Below are positions 5,061-39,337 of a DNA stretch of 64,000 nucleotides, piece after piece. The notes beneath the pieces were generated by a model. The model did not search any database. It saw nothing but the letters and a program-made list of their open reading frames with translations, and had not been told where the DNA came from. Both the position numbers and the translations under genes were made by a program. This DNA comes from Chromobacterium violaceum ATCC 12472 (GTDB taxonomy: Bacteria > Pseudomonadota > Gammaproteobacteria > Burkholderiales > Chromobacteriaceae): positions 4,597,752-4,661,751 of the forward strand of contig NC_005085.1 in the NCBI RefSeq assembly GCF_000007705.1. The letters are read 5' to 3'. Position 1 is the stretch's first letter, and every line of letters starts with the position of its first letter.

Positions 5061-7370
<2,310 letters not shown>

Positions 7371-7395
7371 GCCCGGGGCTCCCGAACCGATCAAC

Positions 7396-7433
7396 AAACA
7401 GCCCTGCCGGCGTTGCCGACAGGGCTGTTTTTT
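7396..7433 (+). terminator. Terminator after topA
   Basis: An 11-base stem (AAACAGCCCTG / CAGGGCTGTTT, 7396-7406 and 7420-7430) closes a GC-rich loop and runs into TTTTTT on the plus strand. The A-rich left side could also let it act for the convergent minus-strand gene at 7468-8745. Confidence 0.9.
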
Positions 7434-7467
7434 CGCCATATTCAAAGCCTAGGCAGAGATATCCCGC

Positions 7468-8745
7468 CTATTCGTTTTCCCCCAAGAAGGTGAAATAGCC
7501 CATAGGCACATGCACGCTGCGCAAGGTTGGCACCGCTCCGACTTCCCCAAGTAAATCGACGGCCTGCAGATAATGGCTGTTCGAATGCGGCACGCACCAG
7601 AGCATTCCAATCTCCACCGAAGCGCTGCTCGGCAATCCTCTGCCGTTCGGCCCTTCCAGATGCAGCTTCAGCTGGCCAGCGTAGAGTGGCGGCGCAATGA
7701 CGGAGACCCGCAATTCCTGGCTGTCTTTGACAACCGTTACCATGCCGCTGTCAAATGCCGCATCAGGATCGTCCGAATACATCCGCAGCTTGGAGCCCTC
7801 CGGCACGCGACGGCACCTCATAACAAAACTGAACTGCTCCGGCGTACCGTCCTGATTGTGGAAAACCAGCGATGTTTCTCCGAGTTTCGGCACCGTATTC
7901 ACATTGCGCCAAGCCGCAGCACCGTTATTGATAAGCCAAGTCACGAAGTTCCAGTTCCCCTGCTCAATTGTCAGCGGATTATTTTTTGTAAAGAAATCAG
8001 CATCGGTTATCGTGGCGACCAGGCAGACATGCCCTAGAGGCAGATCGGCAACGAAAGCTTCCGACGCTCCTCGTTCACCAGTCGTCAACTTGGCTGGGTG
8101 ACCATTTCTATCAAGAATGTTTCCTTCTTCCTGATCGCCATCGCGCGTACGGCATTGAACCCAGGAGCTAGCCGTTTGAGTAAAACCAGCCGGCACAGCG
8201 AACATCCGCACCTTGATACCAGAAATCTCTCCTTCAAATCCTAGGTTTTGACAGCGGGCATAAGCATAATTGACACCTGCTTTGGGCGGATTAACTGTCG
8301 AGTCCCAATGATCAATCAGCTCTCTCGGTGTTAAGACCAATACTTGAGAAGTGACAATATCCAAGGCATTAAAATAATTAGGAGACGGAATGGCTCCCCC
8401 ATCGCCTGGATATTTTCGGCACAATATGCCGCGCCATTGCCTGAACGATACCCTGGCGTACTGCAGCGCATCCACCTGACTAATCCCCATCGCCGCAGCT
8501 AAACTCGTAGCCAAGATATCAGCGCTCGCACCTTGACTCGTCCAATATGTGTCGATGTACACTGCTGCGAACACATCTGAAAAAAGTTGATTGGATGTCC
8601 TTGCAGGCATTTTTTTACGGACCGTAATCATTGCCTGAACATCACTATCTCCCTTCATCTGCCTTAGAATGACGCTACCCCAAAGCTCCGACTCGGAATC
8701 AAGCATTCCAGGCGCACTCACCGCTTCTTTAACGATATCGTTCAT
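7468..8745 (-). CDS. Unrecognised 425-residue protein
   Basis: I do not recognise this protein. It is a single uninterrupted reading frame of 425 codons with a GGAG ribosome site 8 bases before the ATG. Its codons are visibly richer in A/T than those of the flanking topA and gshAB genes, which suggests recent acquisition. There is no signal peptide or transmembrane segment. The N-terminal half (to about 170) looks helical, with W and Y residues (DTYWTSQG, FRQWRGILC). The C-terminal half looks beta-rich, with segments such as SFVMRCRRVPEGSKLRMYSDD and EIGMLWCVPHSN, and Cys residues scattered. It stands alone between the topA terminator and a gene-free AT-rich stretch. A cytosolic accessory factor or a toxin/effector are both possible; nothing seen decides. 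Confidence 0.8.
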   Translation of the reverse strand: MNDIVKEAVSAPGMLDSESELWGSVILRQMKGDSDVQAMITVRKKMPARTSNQLFSDVFAAVYIDTYWTSQGASADILATSLAAAMGISQVDALQYARVSFRQWRGILCRKYPGDGGAIPSPNYFNALDIVTSQVLVLTPRELIDHWDSTVNPPKAGVNYAYARCQNLGFEGEISGIKVRMFAVPAGFTQTASSWVQCRTRDGDQEEGNILDRNGHPAKLTTGERGASEAFVADLPLGHVCLVATITDADFFTKNNPLTIEQGNWNFVTWLINNGAAAWRNVNTVPKLGETSLVFHNQDGTPEQFSFVMRCRRVPEGSKLRMYSDDPDAAFDSGMVTVVKDSQELRVSVIAPPLYAGQLKLHLEGPNGRGLPSSASVEIGMLWCVPHSNSHYLQAVDLLGEVGAVPTLRSVHVPMGYFTFLGENE

Positions 8746-9474
8746 GACATAAACTCCACGCCAAAGTGACTAAAGCTGAAACAGCCCCCGCAACGAGATG
8801 ATCTAATTTCCGTGCGTAATGCACACAGTCAGGCCGCCATTTGGGCTGAGCGCACATCAAGACTCTCACCATTTCCCGATCATTAAATCAAAATGAAATG
8901 TGAAAATAGCAATTGCTCCATTTATCGGCATCTTGCCAGATGAAACTTAGCGCTATTTTAAGCAGATCGCCTGTCAGAAAGCACAGGGCGTATAAATCCT
9001 GATTCTGCACCTATTACCAGAAAACCATTAATGCGACTCATAATCTTGAGCAATGAAAAGATTCGGCCACAATATGATGCCCCTGCTGGTAATTGCCGGA
9101 ATGCTACGGATTGACAATCGTTGGCGCGGAAGAAAGGCATCAGCTGGCCGTTGCGACCTGATGTTGTCGATGGCCGCCGGATGCGGCGCGTCCACACGCC
9201 ATGGCGTCGATGACAGAGGGAGCCACCCTGCTCAGGAAAAGCCGGCCGCCGCCGCAGCTGTTGCGGATCGGCATCACCCAGACAAACGCGGCCGTTACAG
9301 GCGGCAAGCCGGCATCATGGATAAGTTGTTGATTATATGGAAAACCACTCTCCATCCAGCGCTATAATCGCGGTCTATGGCGCGCCTCCCTCGACCCAAT
9401 CTATCCCGCCGCCGCGACACGCCGCCTGCGCAGATCCCGGGAGCCGCCAACGTCCGCATCAATGGATAGAAACC
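8746..9474. other. Gene-free AT-richer stretch
   Basis: About 730 bases without a convincing gene. The first 320 bases are clearly AT-richer than the surroundings and presumably carry the promoter of the divergent minus-strand gene ending at 8745. Short open frames exist (for example 9053-9367 plus, 8958-9197 minus) but have no good ribosome site and low-complexity, arginine-rich translations. Nothing resembling an insertion sequence end or tRNA was seen. Confidence 0.6.
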
Positions 9475-9852
9475 ATGAAAGTCAGCAGCCATTTCCTGTT
9501 CACCGGCGCCTTCGTCCTCACCCTGCTCAGCCTCGCCGACCAGCAATACCTGATGCTGCCGGTGGCCTTCCTGGCCATCTTCCTCGGCCTGTCGGCAGCC
9601 GACCGCGAGCAGCTGGCCGAGATGTCGCCGCGCGCCGCCGCGATGCTGCTGCCGGCCTCGCAGCGGCCGCTGATGCCGCTGGATGCCTTCCGCGGACAAG
9701 ACCTGATGTTTTATCGCGCCGGCAGTCCGGTTTACCGCACCTTGCACGCGCGCGACGCCCGCTGGCAGTTCCTGGGCGAACAGGGGGAGGTGGCCGAGGA
9801 GCCGGGCTGCATACGAGTCTATCCCGGCTATCTGTACCGCCGGCAGCCCTGA
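9475..9852 (+). CDS. Small hypothetical membrane protein
   Basis: A 125-residue protein starting MKVSSHFLFTGAFVLTLLSL. Two hydrophobic stretches at about 6-20 and 24-43 suggest a short membrane hairpin, or a signal anchor plus one segment. A soluble C-terminal domain with several aromatic residues (DLMFYRAG, RWQFLGEQ, RVYPGYLYRR) follows. The ATG at 9475 was chosen because the hydrophobic segment begins there; the upstream in-frame extension is proline-rich and not plausible. The gene is convergent with the DUF1622 gene, leaving only nine bases between stops. No family was recognised. Confidence 0.6.
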   Translation: MKVSSHFLFTGAFVLTLLSLADQQYLMLPVAFLAIFLGLSAADREQLAEMSPRAAAMLLPASQRPLMPLDAFRGQDLMFYRAGSPVYRTLHARDARWQFLGEQGEVAEEPGCIRVYPGYLYRRQP

Positions 9853-9861
9853 GGGAGCGCC

Positions 9862-10236
9862 TCAGACTCGGACCGGCCGGCCGCCGGCCTCGGTCTCGCG
9901 GATTTCGCGCGCCAGGAAATAGTTGAGCGCGGTGCGCAGCACGGCGATGGCGCCTAGCTTGCCGATCTGGTCCCAGCTGGGCGCCACCGCGGTGGACAGG
10001 ATGTCGGCCGCCAGCTGCAGCTCCAGCGCCAGCGCGAGGAAACGGGCGAAGGTCAGCCGCAGCCGGTTATAGTCCCGCTTCTGCCCGGCCAGGCTCTGCC
10101 GCAGGCAGCGCCACGCCACCAGCAGCACGCCGCAAGCGATCACCAGCGCGCCGCAGGCCTCCACCGCCAGTTTCAGCCACAACACCAGGTTCTGCACCTG
10201 CTCCTCTACGCCAGCCTGTTGCGGGGAAATCCACAT
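9862..10236 (-). CDS. DUF1622 family membrane protein
   Basis: A 124-residue inner-membrane protein with about three hydrophobic segments: LVLWLKLAVEACGALVIACG, a segment near FLALALELQLAADIL, and GAIAVLRTALNYFL. The pattern LELQLAADIL followed by LRTALNYFLAREI is typical of the DUF1622 family, whose function is unknown. The ATG at 10236 has an AGGAGAG ribosome site. Upstream on the same strand lies dgkA, but a hairpin terminator in the gap (10265-10284) suggests separate transcription. Confidence 0.75.
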   Translation of the reverse strand: MWISPQQAGVEEQVQNLVLWLKLAVEACGALVIACGVLLVAWRCLRQSLAGQKRDYNRLRLTFARFLALALELQLAADILSTAVAPSWDQIGKLGAIAVLRTALNYFLAREIRETEAGGRPVRV

Positions 10237-31926: not shown

Positions 31927-32017
31927 TCCAATTGGCAAATGACTTTTGCGCAGGAATTCCAATAACATCAAAATGGATTAAACTCACCGATTCTTTCTTG
32001 ATGAGTACCGTTTCTGC

Positions 32018-32938
32018 ATGAATGCCGCCAGGTACGCCGAGCACCTTGCCATCTTTGTCGAAGTCGCGCGCGGGGGGTCGTTTTCAGCGGTCGCCCGCCG
32101 CCACGGCGCGACGCCATCAACCATTACCCGAAAAATCGACATGCTGGAGGAGTTCGTCGGCACCAATCTGCTGGTTCGCTCCACCAGAGCGCTGCTGCTG
32201 ACCGAAGCGGGAGAAACACTGTTTGCCCGCGGAGTCAGCGTACTGGAAGCCTTGACCGACATCCATAACGAGGTCATCGCCCTGAGCGACAGCATGTACG
32301 GCACGCTGCGCATCAGTTGTCTGCCGACTTTCGGCAAACTGCATGTCCTGCCTTGGCTGGCCGACTTGCAACAACGCCATCCCAGCATGCGCATTGATCT
32401 CGACCTCACCGAACGTCTAACCAATCCATCGGTGGAGCGGCTGGATGCCGCCATTCGCATCGGCAAGCTCAAGGACAGTTCGCTGTTCGCCAAGCAGATC
32501 GGCACGCAACGCTGGGTGATCTGCGCCAGCCCCGACTACCTGCGCCAACGCGGCCATCCTTCCGATCTCGAAGACCTGCGCCGGCTCCGGCTCATCGACA
32601 AGTTGCACGATCCTCATTCCATGTGCTGGAGACGACTGGTGGAAAAAGGCCATATAGACCAGATTGAGGCCGCTTTCCGTTGCGACGACTTCGAAGCCAT
32701 GCGCCAAGCCGCGCTGTGCGGACTCGGCGCGGCTTTCCTGCCGGACTGGGTGATAGCCCAAGACCTGGCCGCAGGCGCGCTGATTCGATTGTTCGATGAT
32801 CCGGAAGGAAGGGAAGATGGCATTCACCTGGTGCGGGCCCTGCCCAAGATGTCGGCCAAGCTGGAGGTTTTCCACCAGGCCCTGAGCAACCATCTCGGGC
32901 AAGTCCGCATCGGCGGATGCCTGCCCGCCTCCCGTTAA
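32018..32938 (+). CDS. LysR-type transcriptional regulator
   Basis: A 306-residue DNA-binding regulator. The winged helix-turn-helix occupies about 7-65 (FVEVARGGSFSAVARRHGATPSTITRKIDMLEEFVG), with the usual LysR linker helix after it. The C-terminal effector-binding domain contains LRISCLPTFGKLHVLPWLADL and ends near EVFHQALSNHLG. Codon use is somewhat less GC-rich than in proA upstream. The gene is convergent with the thiolase/MFS operon, and the two stop codons overlap in TTAA. LysR regulators are more often divergent from their target, so the link to that operon is only plausible by proximity. Confidence 0.92.
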   Translation: MNAARYAEHLAIFVEVARGGSFSAVARRHGATPSTITRKIDMLEEFVGTNLLVRSTRALLLTEAGETLFARGVSVLEALTDIHNEVIALSDSMYGTLRISCLPTFGKLHVLPWLADLQQRHPSMRIDLDLTERLTNPSVERLDAAIRIGKLKDSSLFAKQIGTQRWVICASPDYLRQRGHPSDLEDLRRLRLIDKLHDPHSMCWRRLVEKGHIDQIEAAFRCDDFEAMRQAALCGLGAAFLPDWVIAQDLAAGALIRLFDDPEGREDGIHLVRALPKMSAKLEVFHQALSNHLGQVRIGGCLPASR

Positions 32939-34137
32939 ATCCGCTCAATCACCATAGCGATGCCCTGGCCTACGCCCACGCACATGGAACACAGCGCGTA
33001 GCGTCCCCCCGTCCGCGCCAGGTGGTACACCGCGGTGGAGACCAGCCGCGCGCCGCTGGCGCCAAGCGGATGGCCCAACGCGATGGCCCCGCCATTGGGG
33101 TTGACTCGGCTATCGTCGTCCGACAGACGCAACTCCCGCAGCACCGCCAGCGCCTGGGCAGCGAACGCTTCATTCAATTCTATGTGGTCGATCTGCTCCA
33201 GCCTCAACCCCGCCAGCGCCAAGGCCTTGTTGATCGCCGGCACCGGCCCCATTCCCATCACTCGGGGCGCTACTCCCGCTGCCGCTGCCGCCAAGATGCG
33301 GGCGCGCGGTACCAGTCCATGGCGGCGAATCCCCTCCTCGCCCGCCAACAGCAATGCGCAAGCGCCGTCATTGATGCCTGAAGCGTTTCCGGCAGTCACC
33401 GTGCCATCCGGAGTGACAACGCCTTTGAGCCGCGCCAGTTCCTCCAGCGAGGTTTGCCTCGGATGCTCGTCCTGGGCAAATATCTTGTCCTCGCCCTTCC
33501 GCTGCGGAATACGCACCTCCATCAGCTCATCGGCAAAAAAACCCCGCTCATAGGCCGCTGCGGTCCGTTGCTGGCTCAACAAGGCGAACGCATCTTGGTC
33601 GGACCGTGACACGCCGAACTCCTTCGCCACGTTTTCCGCGGTTTCCGGCATGGTATCCACGCCATACAGGGTCTTCATTCTCGGATTGACGAAACGCCAA
33701 CCCATGGTGGTGTCCTCCATCTTCAGAGAGCGCGAGAACACGCTGTCCGCTTTGCCCACCACGTAAGGTGCCCTGCTCATGCTTTCCACCCCGCCGGCGA
33801 CAAGCAGCTCCGCTTCGCCGCTTTTCAACGCCCGCGCCGACATCGCCAGCGCATCCAGGCTGGAACCGCACAAGCGGTTGACCGTAGTGCCCGGCACGGC
33901 TGCCGGCAACCCCGCCAGCAGCGCCGCCATGCGCGCCACGTTCCGATTGTCCTCTCCGGCCTGGTTGGCGCATCCATAGATCACATCGTCGATCGAAGCC
34001 GCGCCCAATTGCGGGTTCCTCGCCAGCAAGGCCTGGATGGGCAGCGCCGCCAGCTCGTCGCCGCGAATGGAAGACAGAGAACCGCCGTAACGACCAAAGG
34101 GGGTACGCACGGCATCGCAGATATAAGCATTTTTCAT
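32935..34137 (-). CDS. Thiolase (3-oxoadipyl-CoA / acetyl-CoA acyltransferase family)
   Basis: A thiolase of 400 residues. The acyl-accepting Cys90 lies in TVNRLCGSSLDALAMSA. The C-terminal catalytic segments are NEAFAAQALAVLREL, NPNGGAIALGHPLGASGARL and CSMCVGVGQG. The N-terminus (ICDAVRTPFGRYGGSLSSIRGDELAALP) and CANQAGEDNRNVARMAALLAG closely resemble PcaF/PaaJ 3-oxoadipyl-CoA thiolases. No other beta-ketoadipate or phenylacetate genes are nearby, so the physiological substrate is unclear. Its ATG overlaps the stop of the upstream MFS gene, so the two are translationally coupled. A role in making or degrading an acyl-CoA that relates to the exported compound is a guess. Confidence 0.88.
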   Translation of the reverse strand: MKNAYICDAVRTPFGRYGGSLSSIRGDELAALPIQALLARNPQLGAASIDDVIYGCANQAGEDNRNVARMAALLAGLPAAVPGTTVNRLCGSSLDALAMSARALKSGEAELLVAGGVESMSRAPYVVGKADSVFSRSLKMEDTTMGWRFVNPRMKTLYGVDTMPETAENVAKEFGVSRSDQDAFALLSQQRTAAAYERGFFADELMEVRIPQRKGEDKIFAQDEHPRQTSLEELARLKGVVTPDGTVTAGNASGINDGACALLLAGEEGIRRHGLVPRARILAAAAAGVAPRVMGMGPVPAINKALALAGLRLEQIDHIELNEAFAAQALAVLRELRLSDDDSRVNPNGGAIALGHPLGASGARLVSTAVYHLARTGGRYALCSMCVGVGQGIAMVIERI

Positions 34138-35306
34138 GAAACTCTCCAGATCAGGCGCAGCGCCACGATGGCATTCGCATTTAAAACAATCACGACGGTC
34201 GACGCAGCCAAGCCCAACGCCGCGATGCCGCTCCATCCGTACTCTCCGGCCAGCGCGGCCCCGGCTCGGGTGCCGAGGGCGCCGCCCAGGAAATAGCACG
34301 CCATGAACACCGTGTTCAGACGGCTGCGCGCGCTGTCGGACAAGGACAAGGCGCGCAATTGATTGCCCACCAAGCCGGCGCGGCCGCCCAAGTCCAGAAT
34401 GACGATTCCCAACAACAGCGCCGGCAACAGGGATGCGCTGCTGCCAATCAGGGCAAAGGCGCAGGCGGCGGCTATCGCGCCCAGCAACACAACCGCTCGC
34501 GCGCCCAGGCGGTCCGCCAGCCGGCCAATGAACGGGGACGCGAAAATGCCGGCGATGCCGACCAAGCCGAACAAACCGACGGCATCGCTATGAAAGCGAT
34601 AGGGCGGGCGGGACAGCAGATAAGCCAACGCGCCCCATAACGCGCTGAAGGCGCCAAACATCAAAGCGCCGCACAGACAGGCAAGCCGCAGTTCCCGCTC
34701 CGTCGCCAACAGCTGTCCCAGGGAGCGCAGCAATTGGCCATAGGATGAACGCGCCAATCCGCCGCTCGCCGGCAAAGTCGCCGCCACCACCGCGATCAAA
34801 CCGATATCGATGCCTGCGGCAAGGGCATACATCGTTCGCCAGCCGGCATAGCCGCCCACCAAGCCGGATAGCGTTCTGGCCAGCAAAATACCGGCCAGCA
34901 AGCCGCTCATCACCGTGCCGACCGCGCGGCCTCGCTGCTCGGGAGACATCATCAAAGATACGGCCGGTATGATGATTTGCGCGCCGACTGACGTCATGCC
35001 GATGACGACATGAGCGGCGATCAGCATGGGCAAACTGGAGGAGGACGCCGCCCAGATTGAACCGGCCGCATTGACGCACAGCAGCGAAATCATCAATTTG
35101 CGACGGCTAACCCAGTCCCCCAGGGGCACAAACAACACCAGTCCCACCGCATAGGCCAACTGCACGGTCATCGCGATGGAGCTGGCTTGGCCGACATCGG
35201 CCCCGAACGTCTGCGCGAACAACACCAGCAAGGGCTGGTTGTAATAGATGTTGGCGACAGAGAACGCGCAGATTCCGGCGAATAGAAACAATGTCCGCGA
35301 ACGCAT
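34134..35306 (-). CDS. MFS transporter (drug/metabolite exporter)
   Basis: A 12-helix major facilitator of 390 residues. The first helix is SRTLFLFAGICAFSVANIYYNQ. The loop 2-3 motif appears as PLGDWVSRRKLM and its second-half counterpart as GRLADRLGARAVV. It resembles the arabinose-efflux/DHA1-like group, with SVANIYYNQPLL typical of YgaY/YnfM-like members. The ATG at 35306 has GGAG upstream; a GTG two codons earlier is possible. It is coupled to the thiolase by a four-base overlap. Likely direction is export; substrate unknown. Confidence 0.88.
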   Translation of the reverse strand: MRSRTLFLFAGICAFSVANIYYNQPLLVLFAQTFGADVGQASSIAMTVQLAYAVGLVLFVPLGDWVSRRKLMISLLCVNAAGSIWAASSSSLPMLIAAHVVIGMTSVGAQIIIPAVSLMMSPEQRGRAVGTVMSGLLAGILLARTLSGLVGGYAGWRTMYALAAGIDIGLIAVVAATLPASGGLARSSYGQLLRSLGQLLATERELRLACLCGALMFGAFSALWGALAYLLSRPPYRFHSDAVGLFGLVGIAGIFASPFIGRLADRLGARAVVLLGAIAAACAFALIGSSASLLPALLLGIVILDLGGRAGLVGNQLRALSLSDSARSRLNTVFMACYFLGGALGTRAGAALAGEYGWSGIAALGLAASTVVIVLNANAIVALRLIWRVS

Positions 35307-35375
35307 GAACACTCCGGTTAATTTGACATGGTGAAACCGGGCATGCTCGCATGCCCGTGCCGATTAATCCGGCAA

Positions 35376-36554
35376 TCAAGTCATTGCGATTTCGGCCCAC
35401 TTCTGGAGCGGGACCGAATCCGATGCCTGGGACGGCAAGGGCAAGAACGCTTGCAACTGCAAATAGCACAGATATCGGTCCAGCAGCTCGAACTTCAGTT
35501 TCGGAGGATAAACATCGTGGGACTGGGCCGCCTCCTCGATCTTCTCCGTGCGGAATTTCTGGATTTCTCGTCCAAAGCGCAGGATCTTTTCATGCGCGCC
35601 CTCAGTGCCATACAAGGGGAAGAAACGATACAGCGCGTTGTTTTCTCCATCCGCCAACAGTTTCTTCTGCCATTCGTAGAATTCAAGCGTCTGAATCCGG
35701 TAACCACGGTTATTCAACCACGCGACGATCTCCTGCCAGGAAATCAATTCCGTGTAATTGAACAGGTTAACGACATGGCCGCCCTCGGTCATATAGCGGG
35801 GCAAATTCATAATCTGGGCGGTAAAGTCAACCGGTGTGAAATTGATCAGTCGCTTCAGTTCCGGCGCATAGCCCAGCTGAACACAACTCTTGATGAACAG
35901 CATGAACTGGTTGTCGCTGAACAGTGCCGCTCCGGTCTGGCTGTGGCCGGAAATATAACCTAGGCGGAATATATTCCCCTTTCCTCCAGAGCGGTGGAAA
36001 TCACCGACAAGCTTTTCGGCCTCCCACTTGGATAACAGATAGCCCATATCGGAGTTGAGGCGCTCCTCTTCCGGAAAGTCTTCGACATACTTTCCATCCG
36101 CGTCAACTCGGACAGCCGATCCCAGCGTCGAAACAAAATTCACCACCTTGCTTCGGCCCGTCCGCGCCATTTCCAGCAGGTCGGCGACACTATCCACATT
36201 CGCGCCCTTCAAAACATCATACGGACGGATGTGATTGACGCGAGCGGCGATGTGATGAATCACATCCACGTTTTCGCATAACTCTTGATAATCTTCGACG
36301 GACAAGCCCAGATTTTTCTGCGTGATGTCCCCATCGATCATTTTGATTTTGTCTATCTCCGCCAAGTCAGCATTGGCATAGATGGAAAATTTCTTAAAGG
36401 CATCCAGTATGCGCTGCCTGGGCTTGGACCAGTCAATTTTTCGGCACGCCACATAGACAGTTCCGACATCGCTAGAACTAACCAGTTCATTCAACAAATG
36501 GGCACCAATGAATCCGGTCGAACCTGTCAGCAATACATTTTTCTTTTCGCTCAT
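35376..36554 (-). CDS. Stand-alone thioester-reductase-like SDR enzyme
   Basis: An extended short-chain dehydrogenase of 392 residues that resembles the terminal thioester-reductase domains of peptide synthetases and carboxylate reductases. The NAD(P)-binding motif LLTGSTGFIGAHLL is at 8-21, HIAARVNHIRPYDVLKGANV corresponds to the family middle region, and catalytic Ser142, Tyr172 and Lys176 lie in NFVSTLGSA and GYLLSKWEAEKL. There is no carrier or adenylation domain attached. The gene is less GC-rich than housekeeping neighbours. Start is uncertain: ATG 36554 or ATG 36572, neither with a good ribosome site. It lies 69 bases upstream of the MFS gene on the same strand, so the three genes may form one operon for a small molecule. 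Confidence 0.82.
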   Translation of the reverse strand: MSEKKNVLLTGSTGFIGAHLLNELVSSSDVGTVYVACRKIDWSKPRQRILDAFKKFSIYANADLAEIDKIKMIDGDITQKNLGLSVEDYQELCENVDVIHHIAARVNHIRPYDVLKGANVDSVADLLEMARTGRSKVVNFVSTLGSAVRVDADGKYVEDFPEEERLNSDMGYLLSKWEAEKLVGDFHRSGGKGNIFRLGYISGHSQTGAALFSDNQFMLFIKSCVQLGYAPELKRLINFTPVDFTAQIMNLPRYMTEGGHVVNLFNYTELISWQEIVAWLNNRGYRIQTLEFYEWQKKLLADGENNALYRFFPLYGTEGAHEKILRFGREIQKFRTEKIEEAAQSHDVYPPKLKFELLDRYLCYLQLQAFLPLPSQASDSVPLQKWAEIAMT

Positions 36555-36748
36555 GACCACACCATCATTCATACATGTTGGAAACTGAATTGTATTAACG
36601 GTGATTTACATTTAGAAGCCAGTCTAAATCCGAAACAGTTTTGCCAATTTCGCAAAGATATCCCGCATCGATTGATGCAATCCCACGCGGCTCCACACGC
36701 ATCGTCTTTCGGGTCATAATCATGGTTTGTACTTACTAAAACATCGCC

Positions 36749-37225
36749 ATGAAGCTCCTGACCCAATCGGATCTCGCAGATCTGTCCGCCCAGGCCGCCT
36801 GTGCGCCGCGCCTGCGCGCCCACCACAACATCCACGCCGAACTGGGTGACGCCATTCAGCGCCTGGCCATCGCGATGGAGCCGGATACCTACGTCCGCCC
36901 GCACCGTCATCCCGGCAGTCCCGAGCTGTTGATCATGCTGTCCGGCGCGCTGGACTGGATCGAGTTCGACGCCGCCGGCGAAACCGTCGTCGCCCGCCAC
37001 CGGCTGAGCGAAGACGGCGCGCGCGTGTTCGAGATGCCGGCCGGCACCTGGCACTCGGTGGTGTCGCTGGAACCGGGCAGCGTGGTATTCGAGATCAAGC
37101 GCGGCCCCTACCTGCCGCTGCCGGCCGCCGATCAGGCCGCCTGGGCGCCGGCCGAAGGCGACGCCCGCGTCGCCGACATGCTGGCCTTCCTGCGCCGCTG
37201 CCAGCCCGGCGACCGCTTCGCGTAA
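36749..37225 (+). CDS. WbuC family cupin metalloprotein
   Basis: A 158-residue cupin. Cupin motif 1 reads YVRPHRHPGSPELLIMLSGALDW with metal-binding His residues; motif 2 is EMPAGTWHSVVSLEPGSVVFEI. The N-terminal LRAHHNIHAELGDAIQRLAIAMEPDT resembles the WbuC family, which is often found in O-antigen loci but also elsewhere. No polysaccharide genes flank it here. Enzymatic activity is unknown. It stands alone, divergent from the thioester-reductase-like gene. Confidence 0.85.
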   Translation: MKLLTQSDLADLSAQAACAPRLRAHHNIHAELGDAIQRLAIAMEPDTYVRPHRHPGSPELLIMLSGALDWIEFDAAGETVVARHRLSEDGARVFEMPAGTWHSVVSLEPGSVVFEIKRGPYLPLPAADQAAWAPAEGDARVADMLAFLRRCQPGDRFA

Positions 37226-37319
37226 CATCGCTTAACATCTTGCCGCCGCGGCCGCCGGAACCCGCGGCGGCCCGCGGCGCACCAAAAAGGCATTGTTTCA
37301 CCAACCGATGCCTAAGCCG

Positions 37320-37676
37320 ATGTCCCTACTCCGCGCCGTTCTCCCCCTCGCCATCTCCTTGTCCCTGCTGGCCTGCGCCACGCCGCTGCGCGCCGCGCCC
37401 GCGCTCAGCCTGAACAGCCCCCGTCCGCCGCAGCAGGTGGCCGACTGCCTGCAGCAAGGCCTGCAGAAGCTGCACATCCCCGACGATTTCGTCGAACGCC
37501 GCGAAGAAAGCGACGGCAGCCGCAGCCTGGCGCTGCGCAATCCGGTCAGCGACGCCTCCGGCACCCGGGTGGACATCCTGCCGCGAGGCGAAGGCAGCCG
37601 GCTGGAAGTCCGGTTGAACGGCATGCCCTTGAGTCCCGCCTGGAAGAAGCAGATCCACGGCTGCACCCGCAAATGA
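37320..37676 (+). CDS. Small exported protein, possible lipoprotein
   Basis: A 118-residue protein with an N-terminal signal (MSLLRAVLPLAISLSLLACA). The LLAC could be a lipobox, or cleavage could occur after RAA near residue 24. The mature part is small and polar, with two Cys at the ends (VADCLQQGLQKL and IHGCTRK). No family recognised. ATG 37308 (MPKPMSLL) is an alternative start. The DnaA-box cluster begins immediately after its stop. Confidence 0.65.
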   Translation: MSLLRAVLPLAISLSLLACATPLRAAPALSLNSPRPPQQVADCLQQGLQKLHIPDDFVERREESDGSRSLALRNPVSDASGTRVDILPRGEGSRLEVRLNGMPLSPAWKKQIHGCTRK

Positions 37677-37677
37677 C

Positions 37678-37848
37678 TGTGGATAAATCTGAAATTGCGC
37701 GAATGACTGTGGGCAAACTGAATATCCCGGGATAAGACTGTGGACAACTTGCCGAAAAACGCCTTTTCCTTTTCCGCCGTGTGGGTAAAGGATTTCATCC
37801 ACAAGCGCCTGTGCACAATGTGGACAATTTCTAATAAGCTGTGAATAA
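37678..37848. promoter_or_regulatory. Cluster of eight DnaA-box-like sites
   Basis: Within 171 intergenic bases there are eight 9-mers matching or nearly matching the DnaA box (TTATNCACA or its complement TGTGNATAA). Plus-orientation sites are TGTGGATAA at 37678 (perfect), TGTGGGCAA at 37708, TGTGGACAA at 37739, TGTGGGTAA at 37780, TGTGCACAA at 37810, TGTGGACAA at 37819 and TGTGAATAA at 37840 (perfect). TCATCCACA at 37795 is on the opposite strand. Of the six imperfect sites, all but 37708 (two mismatches) differ by one base. The first three are spaced 30 and 31 bases apart and the pair 37819/37840 is 21 apart, close to whole helical turns. No dnaA, dnaN or gyrB is in the window. This could be a DnaA-titrating or reactivating locus, a replication origin, or a DnaA-regulated promoter for the DUF2252 gene. 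Confidence 0.7.
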
Positions 37849-37942
37849 ACGTCGCGGGCCCGCACCTCGCCGAATGCTGTCGAATGCCCATCGCGCGCGC
37901 ACGCGGTTACACTGACGGCATACGCTCCCCACGGATACGCCG

Positions 37943-39337
37943 ATGACCACCGCCTCCCATCCGAAGTACGACCAGCATTACGCCGACGGCAAGGCCCGCC
38001 GCCGCGCCTGCCCCCGCTCCAGCCAGGCCGAACTCCACCTGGCACCGGATCGGGACGTGGTGGCGCTGGTGGAGTCCACCTCCCAAGGCCGGGTGCCGGC
38101 GCTGGCGCCGCTGCGCTACGCGCGCATGCACGCGTCGCCGTTCGCCTTCTTCCGCGGCATGGCGATGATCCAGGCCGCCGACCTCGCCGCCGGGCCGGAC
38201 AGCGGGCTCAAGATGCAGATCTGCGGCGACGCCCACCTGATGAACTTCGGCTTTTTCGCGTCGCCGGAGCGGCAACTGGTGTTCGACATCAACGATTTCG
38301 ACGAAACCCATCCCGGTCCCTGGGAATGGGACATCAAGCGGCTGGCGGTCAGCCTGGTGCTGGCCGGCCGCAGCCGCGGCTTCGACGCGCCGGCCGCGCG
38401 CGAAATCGTGCTGCGCCTGGCCGGCACCTACCGCCGCCGCATCCGCGCCTTCTCGCAGATGAGCCAATTGGACTTGTGGTACTGCCGCGTCGGCTTCGAG
38501 CAGTTGTTGTCCCAGGCCACCGACGAAGGCATGCGCCAGCAGCTGAACAAAGTGGCCGGCAAGGCGCGCAATCAGACCCAGGAGCGGCTGCTGCCCAAGA
38601 TGGCCGACCTGGAGGGCGGCGGCCTGCGGCTGCGCGACAACCCGCCGGTGATCTTCCACCTGGACGACCACAACAGCCCGCTCGCCGCCTGCGACGACTG
38701 GCTGGGCGAGGACAGCCGCGCCAAGATCCAGCGCATGCTGGACAGCTACATCGACACGCTGAAGGAAGACCGGCGCGAGCTGCTGCAGCGCTTCCGGCTG
38801 GTGGACGCGGCGTTCAAGGTGGTGGGGGTCGGCAGCGTCGGCACCCGCTGCCTGGCGCTGCTGCTGCAGGACGACTACGACCAGCCGCTGTTCCTGCAAC
38901 TGAAAGAGGCGCGGCCGTCGGTGCTGGAGTCCTTCACCCAGCCATGCGTGCACGGCAACCAGGGCAAGCGCGTGGTGTTCGGCCAGCGCCTGATGCAGGC
39001 CACCAGCGACCTGTTCCTGGGCTGGACCCAGGGCGCGGACGGCCGCCACTTCTACATGCGCCAGCTGCGCGACATGAAGGCCGCCCCGGCGCTGGAGGCC
39101 TTCGCCACCGCCGAAGAGCTGGCCAGCTACGGCCAGGCCTGCGGCTGGACGCTGGCGCGCGCCCACGCCAAGTCCGGCGGCTGCGCGGCCGAGATCGCAG
39201 GCTACCTGGGCGATTCCGACAAGTTCGACCAGATGCTGGCCGACTACGCCCAGGCCTACGCCGACCAGGTGGAAGCCGACTACCGGCTGTTCGACGCGGC
39301 GGTGCGCGGCGGACGCCTGCCAGCCGCCGCGGCATGA
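37943..39337 (+). CDS. DUF2252 family protein
   Basis: A 464-residue protein of the DUF2252 family, predicted to have a protein-kinase-like fold. Typical segments are YARMHASPFAFFRGMAMIQAADL, MQICGDAHLMNFGFFASPERQLVFDINDFDET, WEWDIKRLAVSLVLAGR near the start, and QLRDMKAAP and GWTLARAHAKSG near the end. The GDAHLMNFG / DINDFDE pair resembles the catalytic and metal-binding loops of aminoglycoside-phosphotransferase-like folds. Function is not established. It sits just downstream of the DnaA-box cluster. Confidence 0.88.
   Translation: MTTASHPKYDQHYADGKARRRACPRSSQAELHLAPDRDVVALVESTSQGRVPALAPLRYARMHASPFAFFRGMAMIQAADLAAGPDSGLKMQICGDAHLMNFGFFASPERQLVFDINDFDETHPGPWEWDIKRLAVSLVLAGRSRGFDAPAAREIVLRLAGTYRRRIRAFSQMSQLDLWYCRVGFEQLLSQATDEGMRQQLNKVAGKARNQTQERLLPKMADLEGGGLRLRDNPPVIFHLDDHNSPLAACDDWLGEDSRAKIQRMLDSYIDTLKEDRRELLQRFRLVDAAFKVVGVGSVGTRCLALLLQDDYDQPLFLQLKEARPSVLESFTQPCVHGNQGKRVVFGQRLMQATSDLFLGWTQGADGRHFYMRQLRDMKAAPALEAFATAEELASYGQACGWTLARAHAKSGGCAAEIAGYLGDSDKFDQMLADYAQAYADQVEADYRLFDAAVRGGRLPAAAA

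Follow-up and report, generated by a model that had tools for sequence, protein, structure and literature searches.

A conserved two-module array of DnaA boxes near the replication origin of Chromobacterium, a candidate DnaA sink

Chromobacterium violaceum ATCC 12472 carries an intergenic array of DnaA boxes, arranged in two head-to-tail modules of equal periodicity, which recurs in relatives at a similar distance from the probable replication origin. The array is most likely, judging by its sequence, a further variant of DnaA control locus outside the origin, with a role as a sink. In the best reading it would work like datA of Escherichia coli or the DnaA-box clusters of Bacillus subtilis, as a candidate DnaA sink, and on balance we consider the locus a non-coding, origin-linked putative DnaA assembly site which would retain DnaA after initiation. 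Such a sink looks like a means of helping to prevent too-frequent copying of the chromosome.

Organization of the DnaA-box array

The window, i.e. the whole stretch of 64,000 nucleotides that was analysed, comprises bases 4,597,752–4,661,751 of a genome that forms one contig of 4,751,080 bp. A preliminary description had reported eight DnaA-box-like sites at 37678..37848 of the window, and all eight were found there. Two of them, 37678 TTATCCACA and 37840 TTATTCACA, are perfect, as had been claimed. Seven share one orientation, and the spacings of 30, 31 and 21 bases given before are present among the start-to-start steps of 30, 31, 41, 15, 15, 9 and 21.

The whole array (37678..37848), delimited by its sequence and by the alignment of relatives, is assigned to the minus strand, on which the seven co-oriented boxes take the TTATCCACA reading. 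Module A consists of the perfect box a (TTATCCACA, 37678..37686), box b (TTGCCCACA, 37708..37716), which has two mismatches and a position conserved in relatives, the degenerate sites c (ATATTCAGT, 37717..37725) and c' (TTATCCCGG, 37727..37735), and box d (TTGTCCACA, 37739..37747), all on the minus strand. Module B, also on the minus strand, consists of box a (TTACCCACA, 37780..37788), box b (TTGTGCACA, 37810..37818), the abutting box c (TTGTCCACA, 37819..37827), the degenerate site c' (TTATTAGAA, 37829..37837) and the perfect box d (TTATTCACA, 37840..37848). Three of these sites are degenerate in the window, and their status is deduced from other genomes: c and c' of module A are box-like in relatives, and c' of module B is box-like in the genus g2. 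The sole box of opposite orientation (TCATCCACA, 37795..37803, plus strand) faces box b of module B.

The intergenic placement was likewise borne out. An open reading frame of 127 aa without Pfam match (37293..37676, plus strand) ends with its stop codon one base before the first box, and a DUF2252 gene (PF10009; 37943..39337, plus strand), which served as the anchor for orthologous loci, starts downstream. The unusual local density held as well: seven boxes with at most one mismatch lie within 171 bp, compared to a maximum of three in 200 first-order Markov simulations. The total over the whole window is unremarkable, with 30 boxes versus 24 expected and at least 30 in 13 of 100 shuffles; the extreme property is the clustering and not the window-wide number of boxes. 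The earlier observation is confirmed, and the two-module periodicity and the genome-wide box pairs described below extend beyond it.

Position relative to the origin of replication

No dnaA is present in the window, in agreement with the preliminary description; dnaA, dnaN and gyrB open the contig about 116 kb further on (dnaA confirmed by Pfam, dnaN and gyrB identified by eye). Close behind gyrB, an open reading frame resembling an insertion-element integrase by eye was observed (L001:5504-5998). GC skew was sampled in 41 stretches. Of the 25 located from 2.62 Mb through the end of the contig to 239 kb, 24 were negative, and of the 16 between 245 kb and 2.42 Mb, 15 were positive. Eight strong boxes lie at this switch (C1:236,334-236,834; L007:2335-2835), flanked by genes for a heptosyltransferase (PF01075) and a family-2 glycosyltransferase (PF00535). 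Six other genomes, from two genera, share the layout of this cluster, and some of them lack one or two of its boxes. It is the probable oriC, located 236 kb from dnaA, and the array lies 352 kb from it on dnaA's side.

The earlier proposal that the array might be the replication origin itself can be excluded, as the skew switches at 239–245 kb, at the conserved eight-box cluster 352 kb away. The proposed GC-skew analysis revealed no sign change at the array, the skew being negative on both its sides. Nor was an AT-rich unwinding stretch detected beside the array: the 92 bp after it have a G+C content of about 70%, and a GC-rich open reading frame precedes it. Laribacter hongkongensis is a relative. 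Its oriC, as predicted, contains eight DnaA boxes; IHF, Fis and hda are present as well (PMC3135505).

In relatives, oriC was placed through its flanking genes. The glycosyltransferase anchor was unusable in G007 and G015 (40–42% identity, no strong boxes nearby) and hence the heptosyltransferase anchor was applied there. In all nine genomes of one or two contigs (six of Chromobacterium and three of g2) the array lies 242–527 kb from oriC, corresponding to 0.11–0.20 of the half genome, and in 9/9 it has the same side and the same orientation with respect to the oriC genes.

Conservation within the family

A DUF2252 match at E ≤ 1e-100 was obtained in 37 of 61 family genomes, 36 of them relatives, so that the window and the DNA upstream of the best match in each relative yielded 37 loci. 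The array was recognised in 29 of these: in 18/18 Chromobacterium genomes having DUF2252, in 10/10 genomes of the genus g2 (Aquitalea) and in G043 (g7). The other eight (L163-L170) have no array upstream of DUF2252, some with one to three boxes, and were excluded from the 29-row alignment.

Both modules follow equal steps: box a, 30 bp, b, 9, c, about 10, c', about 12, d. Departures at single boxes occur in some rows, in G027 where module B ends. The boxes b, c, c' and d of module B can be made out in most g2 rows, with steps of 9, 11 and 12. Averaged over columns, identity amounts to 0.80 in boxes against 0.46 in spacers for the 29 rows, and to 0.84 against 0.50 for the 18 rows of Chromobacterium; cutting the 29-row alignment by hand at the first and last box introduces a bias favouring the end boxes. 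An untrimmed alignment of the 18 Chromobacterium loci likewise displayed conserved boxes and non-conserved spacers. The comparison across relatives advised in the preliminary description thus shows boxes that are kept and spacers that drift in 29 aligned copies. Between modules A and B, the d-to-a step falls into classes of 22–24, 41–42 and 65–66 bp, roughly two helical turns apart. The inverted box opposite b in module B occurs in 12/29 rows, with a mean identity of 0.95 there, and is absent in 17/29.

In a genome of 3.5 Mb of the same genus, G014, neither box pairs nor a DUF2252 match was found, and both array and pairs may be missing. Given this genome and the eight of 37 loci without array, the system appears dispensable in the wider family.

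Dispersed pairs of DnaA boxes

A search for head-to-tail pairs of TGTGNRYAA at a spacing of 26–33 bp returned 16 matches genome-wide, four of them in the array, and none with the reversed pattern as control. Beyond the array, the genome contains 12 further pair loci. Although the pattern permitted 26–33 bp, the spacing was 29 bp in 102 and 30 bp in 38 of 140 listed dispersed pairs from 15 genomes of the genus, with no other value; array copies and the coding pair are left out of this count. That coding pair (C1:804517-804555, L013), spaced by 30 bp, lies inside a polA-like gene (by eye), and a near-identical pair is found in several Chromobacterium genomes. A weak consensus is common to the 20-bp spacers of pairs spaced by 29 bp, with T at position 19 in 38/70 and C at position 29 (the last) in 54/70.

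Array copies included, 18 of 19 genomes of the genus have 8–16 matches, with reversed controls at zero, and G014 has none. Elsewhere in the family, 1–2 matches were counted in most of g2, and 10 and 17 in G035 and G036 of genus g5, which have no array upstream of DUF2252. As most of g2 has the array but only 1–2 pairs, array and pairs need not form one system. Outside the family, 63 of 386 genomes of the order sample have at least one match and five at most; the reversed control matched in 21 order genomes, and single matches outside the family are therefore partly background. The five matches occur in G355, where four of them lie at the site between dnaA and dnaN.

All 59 pair loci of six Chromobacterium genomes lie within 0.353 of the half genome from oriC, and 57 within 0.3. 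These loci were taken from genomes of one or two contigs, with sites less than 1 kb apart merged, the array omitted and the coding pair kept; pair loci are shared by descent and the six genomes are consequently not independent. For the 12 pair loci of the C. violaceum genome alone, comparison with uniform placement gave p = 6e-7. Perfect TTATCCACA boxes are found within 650 kb of oriC in 30 of 37 cases, five in oriC itself, compared to 18/57 for other TTRTNCACA. Followed in the sense of fork movement, 47/62 unmerged pairs read TGTGGATAA, which places TTATCCACA on the lagging strand. The preliminary description had held that similar clusters everywhere in the genome would speak against its idea. 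The outcome is mixed and on the whole favours the idea: related box pairs do exist, but they lie in the vicinity of the origin. Both features looked for in titrating clusters were found, namely a box density beyond chance away from oriC and a position on the origin side (array 9/9, pair loci 59/59).

Matches to the array profile in the wider order

A sequence profile of the array was run against 399 genomes of the order at E ≤ 0.01, with filters that lose weak matches. It matched in 21 genomes: 6/13 of the family, each with a best E < 1e-24, and 15/386 others with E between 3.8e-10 and 0.0092, which are not counted as array. For the latter, gene context was read in two and boxes were listed in six more. 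Within the order sample, strong profile matches are limited to the family. In the C. violaceum genome itself, the second-best place is one of the pairs (E 0.005).

The best match outside the family, in G355, is located between dnaA and dnaN (by eye). At this place (L177:1513-1620) two rows of four TGTGGATAA follow each other at 11-bp steps, very regular and origin-like. The match in G152 adjoins genes resembling those beside the Chromobacterium oriC (by eye). Together these two matches indicate that similar rows of boxes are used by origins elsewhere.

Comparison with known DnaA-binding loci and proposed function

The datA locus of E. coli has been placed in the glyVXY-queG interval (PMC5742627); from the coordinates its distance to oriC is 467 kb, or 0.20 of the half genome. 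Array and datA resemble each other as intergenic DnaA-box clusters off oriC at a similar relative distance (0.20 versus 0.11–0.20). They differ in the layout of the boxes, in the duplicated head-to-tail module of the array and in the IHF site: datA requires IHF (PMC5742627), whereas the motif scan of the array retrieved no IHF match with fewer than two mismatches and one best match that overlaps box d. The IHF consensus of the genus itself may differ.

In B. subtilis, the deletion of six DnaA-box clusters caused early initiation, although the same source also states that the clusters have no significant role (PMC5295017). There, as here, several clusters are found outside the origin, and the title of that work calls them oriC-proximal (PMC5295017). 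In contrast, Chromobacterium has pairs fixed at 29/30 bp and one duplicated array, a distinction drawn from the description of the B. subtilis clusters and not from their sequences. E. coli has DnaA boxes that are denser near oriC and titrate DnaA (PMC12371093). The concentration towards oriC and the preference for the lagging strand are common to both organisms (PMC12371093), but the E. coli enrichment is a trend in density, averaging about 900 mostly loose boxes per genome, and not a set of discrete, rigid units. A further parallel is with the DnaA-oligomerising regions of origins. Boxes in head-to-tail order at intervals of 2–3 bp reportedly promote cooperative binding of DnaA (PMC8682772). 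The array has head-to-tail boxes at 9–12-bp steps, and its profile matches the origin-like arrays of G355 and G152; it differs by having neither a skew switch nor an adjoining AT-rich stretch. Because its gaps of about 0 to 3 bp are near the reported cooperative intervals, the array is read as a place for a DnaA oligomer away from oriC.

From the observed arrangement, conservation and position of the array we infer that it is occupied by DnaA. The protein would bind the strong boxes a and d directly, and b, c and c' would be filled cooperatively, as in the oligomerising part of an origin. Array and pairs would be duplicated early after initiation and thereby lower the free DnaA by titration, and the oligomer may also accelerate ATP hydrolysis, as at datA. 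Titration and the possibly faster hydrolysis would both keep oriC from firing again at once. An additional contact of the DARS type, head to head, is conceivable in the clade that carries the inverted box; the spacing speaks against a strict homology.

A sink is suggested by the clustering beyond chance, the conservation of the boxes, the distance of 0.11–0.20 from oriC and the rigid pairs on the origin side. The suggestion is weakened by the lack of a good IHF site in view of the requirement of datA, by the small number of sites (about ten pairs and one array) if DnaA is abundant, by the description of the B. subtilis clusters as lacking a significant role (PMC5295017), and by the absence of the array from 8/37 loci and the near absence of pairs from g2. 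A more far-reaching version, which we regard as rather doubtful, is a dedicated, previously undescribed sequestration network for the control of initiation. It would consist of the double-module array at its kept distance from oriC and of about ten 29/30-bp pairs, each pair with a defined DnaA complex, and the inverted box gained by the array in one clade would add reactivation, combining sink and reactivator in one locus.

The datA or DARS kind of regulatory locus named in the preliminary description is upheld in kind, since the boxes are conserved, the distance to oriC is kept and strong matches are restricted to the family; the assignment to DARS is not, because the spacing differs. In E. 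coli, gaps of 5 and 3 bp separate the boxes both in the DARS1 core (bioD-uvrB interval) and in a box trio near mutH, which we take to be the DARS2 core. The orientation and equal spacing of the DARS core boxes have been described (PMC5742627), and conservation of the DARS2 core has been stated for gamma-proteobacterial relatives of E. coli (PMC4245941), while a review names beta- or gamma-proteobacteria near E. coli (PMC5742627). If the array acted in the manner of DARS, two ADP-DnaA molecules would sit head to head on box b and the inverted box, ADP would leave and ATP-DnaA would be regenerated. The window displays the corresponding topology, a box I opposite to II and III, as do 12/29 copies overall, the inverted box is well conserved in its carriers, and a single perfect Fis consensus extends over boxes b and c in module B. 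Yet the gaps are 6 and 0 bp, for which strict membership was rejected; head-to-tail boxes dominate, 17/29 copies lack the inverted box, the scan gave no IHF site of good quality, and the Fis consensus is a loose one, by our estimate frequent by chance. A DARS-like function is thus unlikely. Another protein reading TGTGGATAA, for instance a chromosome-organising or segregation factor near the origin, could also account for the origin-side spread and the rigid spacing, and the weak consensus of the 29-bp spacers would also suit it. This explanation is distinctly less plausible, as the probable oriC is built of the same word, the word is the DnaA consensus according to PMC8682772, and the genome encodes a DnaA with a typical DNA-binding domain (PF08299).

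Control of the downstream gene by array-bound DnaA would agree with the position of the array 95 bp upstream of the DUF2252 start and with a TTACACT stretch, a possible promoter -10 element, that follows it in the Chromobacterium alignment. We consider such control improbable: in the g2 locus L153 the array is separated from DUF2252 by another open reading frame (252 aa, by eye hydrolase-like), in 7/10 g2 loci the array ends roughly 750–900 bp or more upstream of DUF2252, and two modules presumably exceed the usual needs of a promoter operator. Least probable is a second or former replication origin; the profile does match the origin-like arrays of G355 (dnaA-dnaN) and G152, but the array is neither at a skew switch nor followed by AT-rich DNA suited to unwinding.

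Whether bacteria time initiation through DnaA titration or through a switch in the nucleotide state of DnaA has long been asked, with tests mostly in E. coli, whose candidate titration sites are hundreds of loose boxes. The candidate sink sites of Chromobacterium are few, discrete, rigidly spaced and on the origin side, so that mapping or deleting every one of them is feasible. Conservation of an array in this lineage, at a distance like that of datA, would furthermore bear on the question of a repeated emergence of such control loci. A search of the openly accessible literature, with subscription papers outside its range, retrieved no description of the array or the pairs.

Gene neighbourhood

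The DUF2252 gene is not thought to be part of the mechanism. By its protein, the closest named relatives among the matches listed are Chromobacterium subtsugae (86%) and C. amazonense (85%). In a plasmid similarity search the matches fell on the DUF2252 part of the query (from about 735 onward), and none covered 80% of it. The G+C content, 0.67 over the whole window, dips to about 0.59–0.61 at 6001-10000 and 32001-38000.
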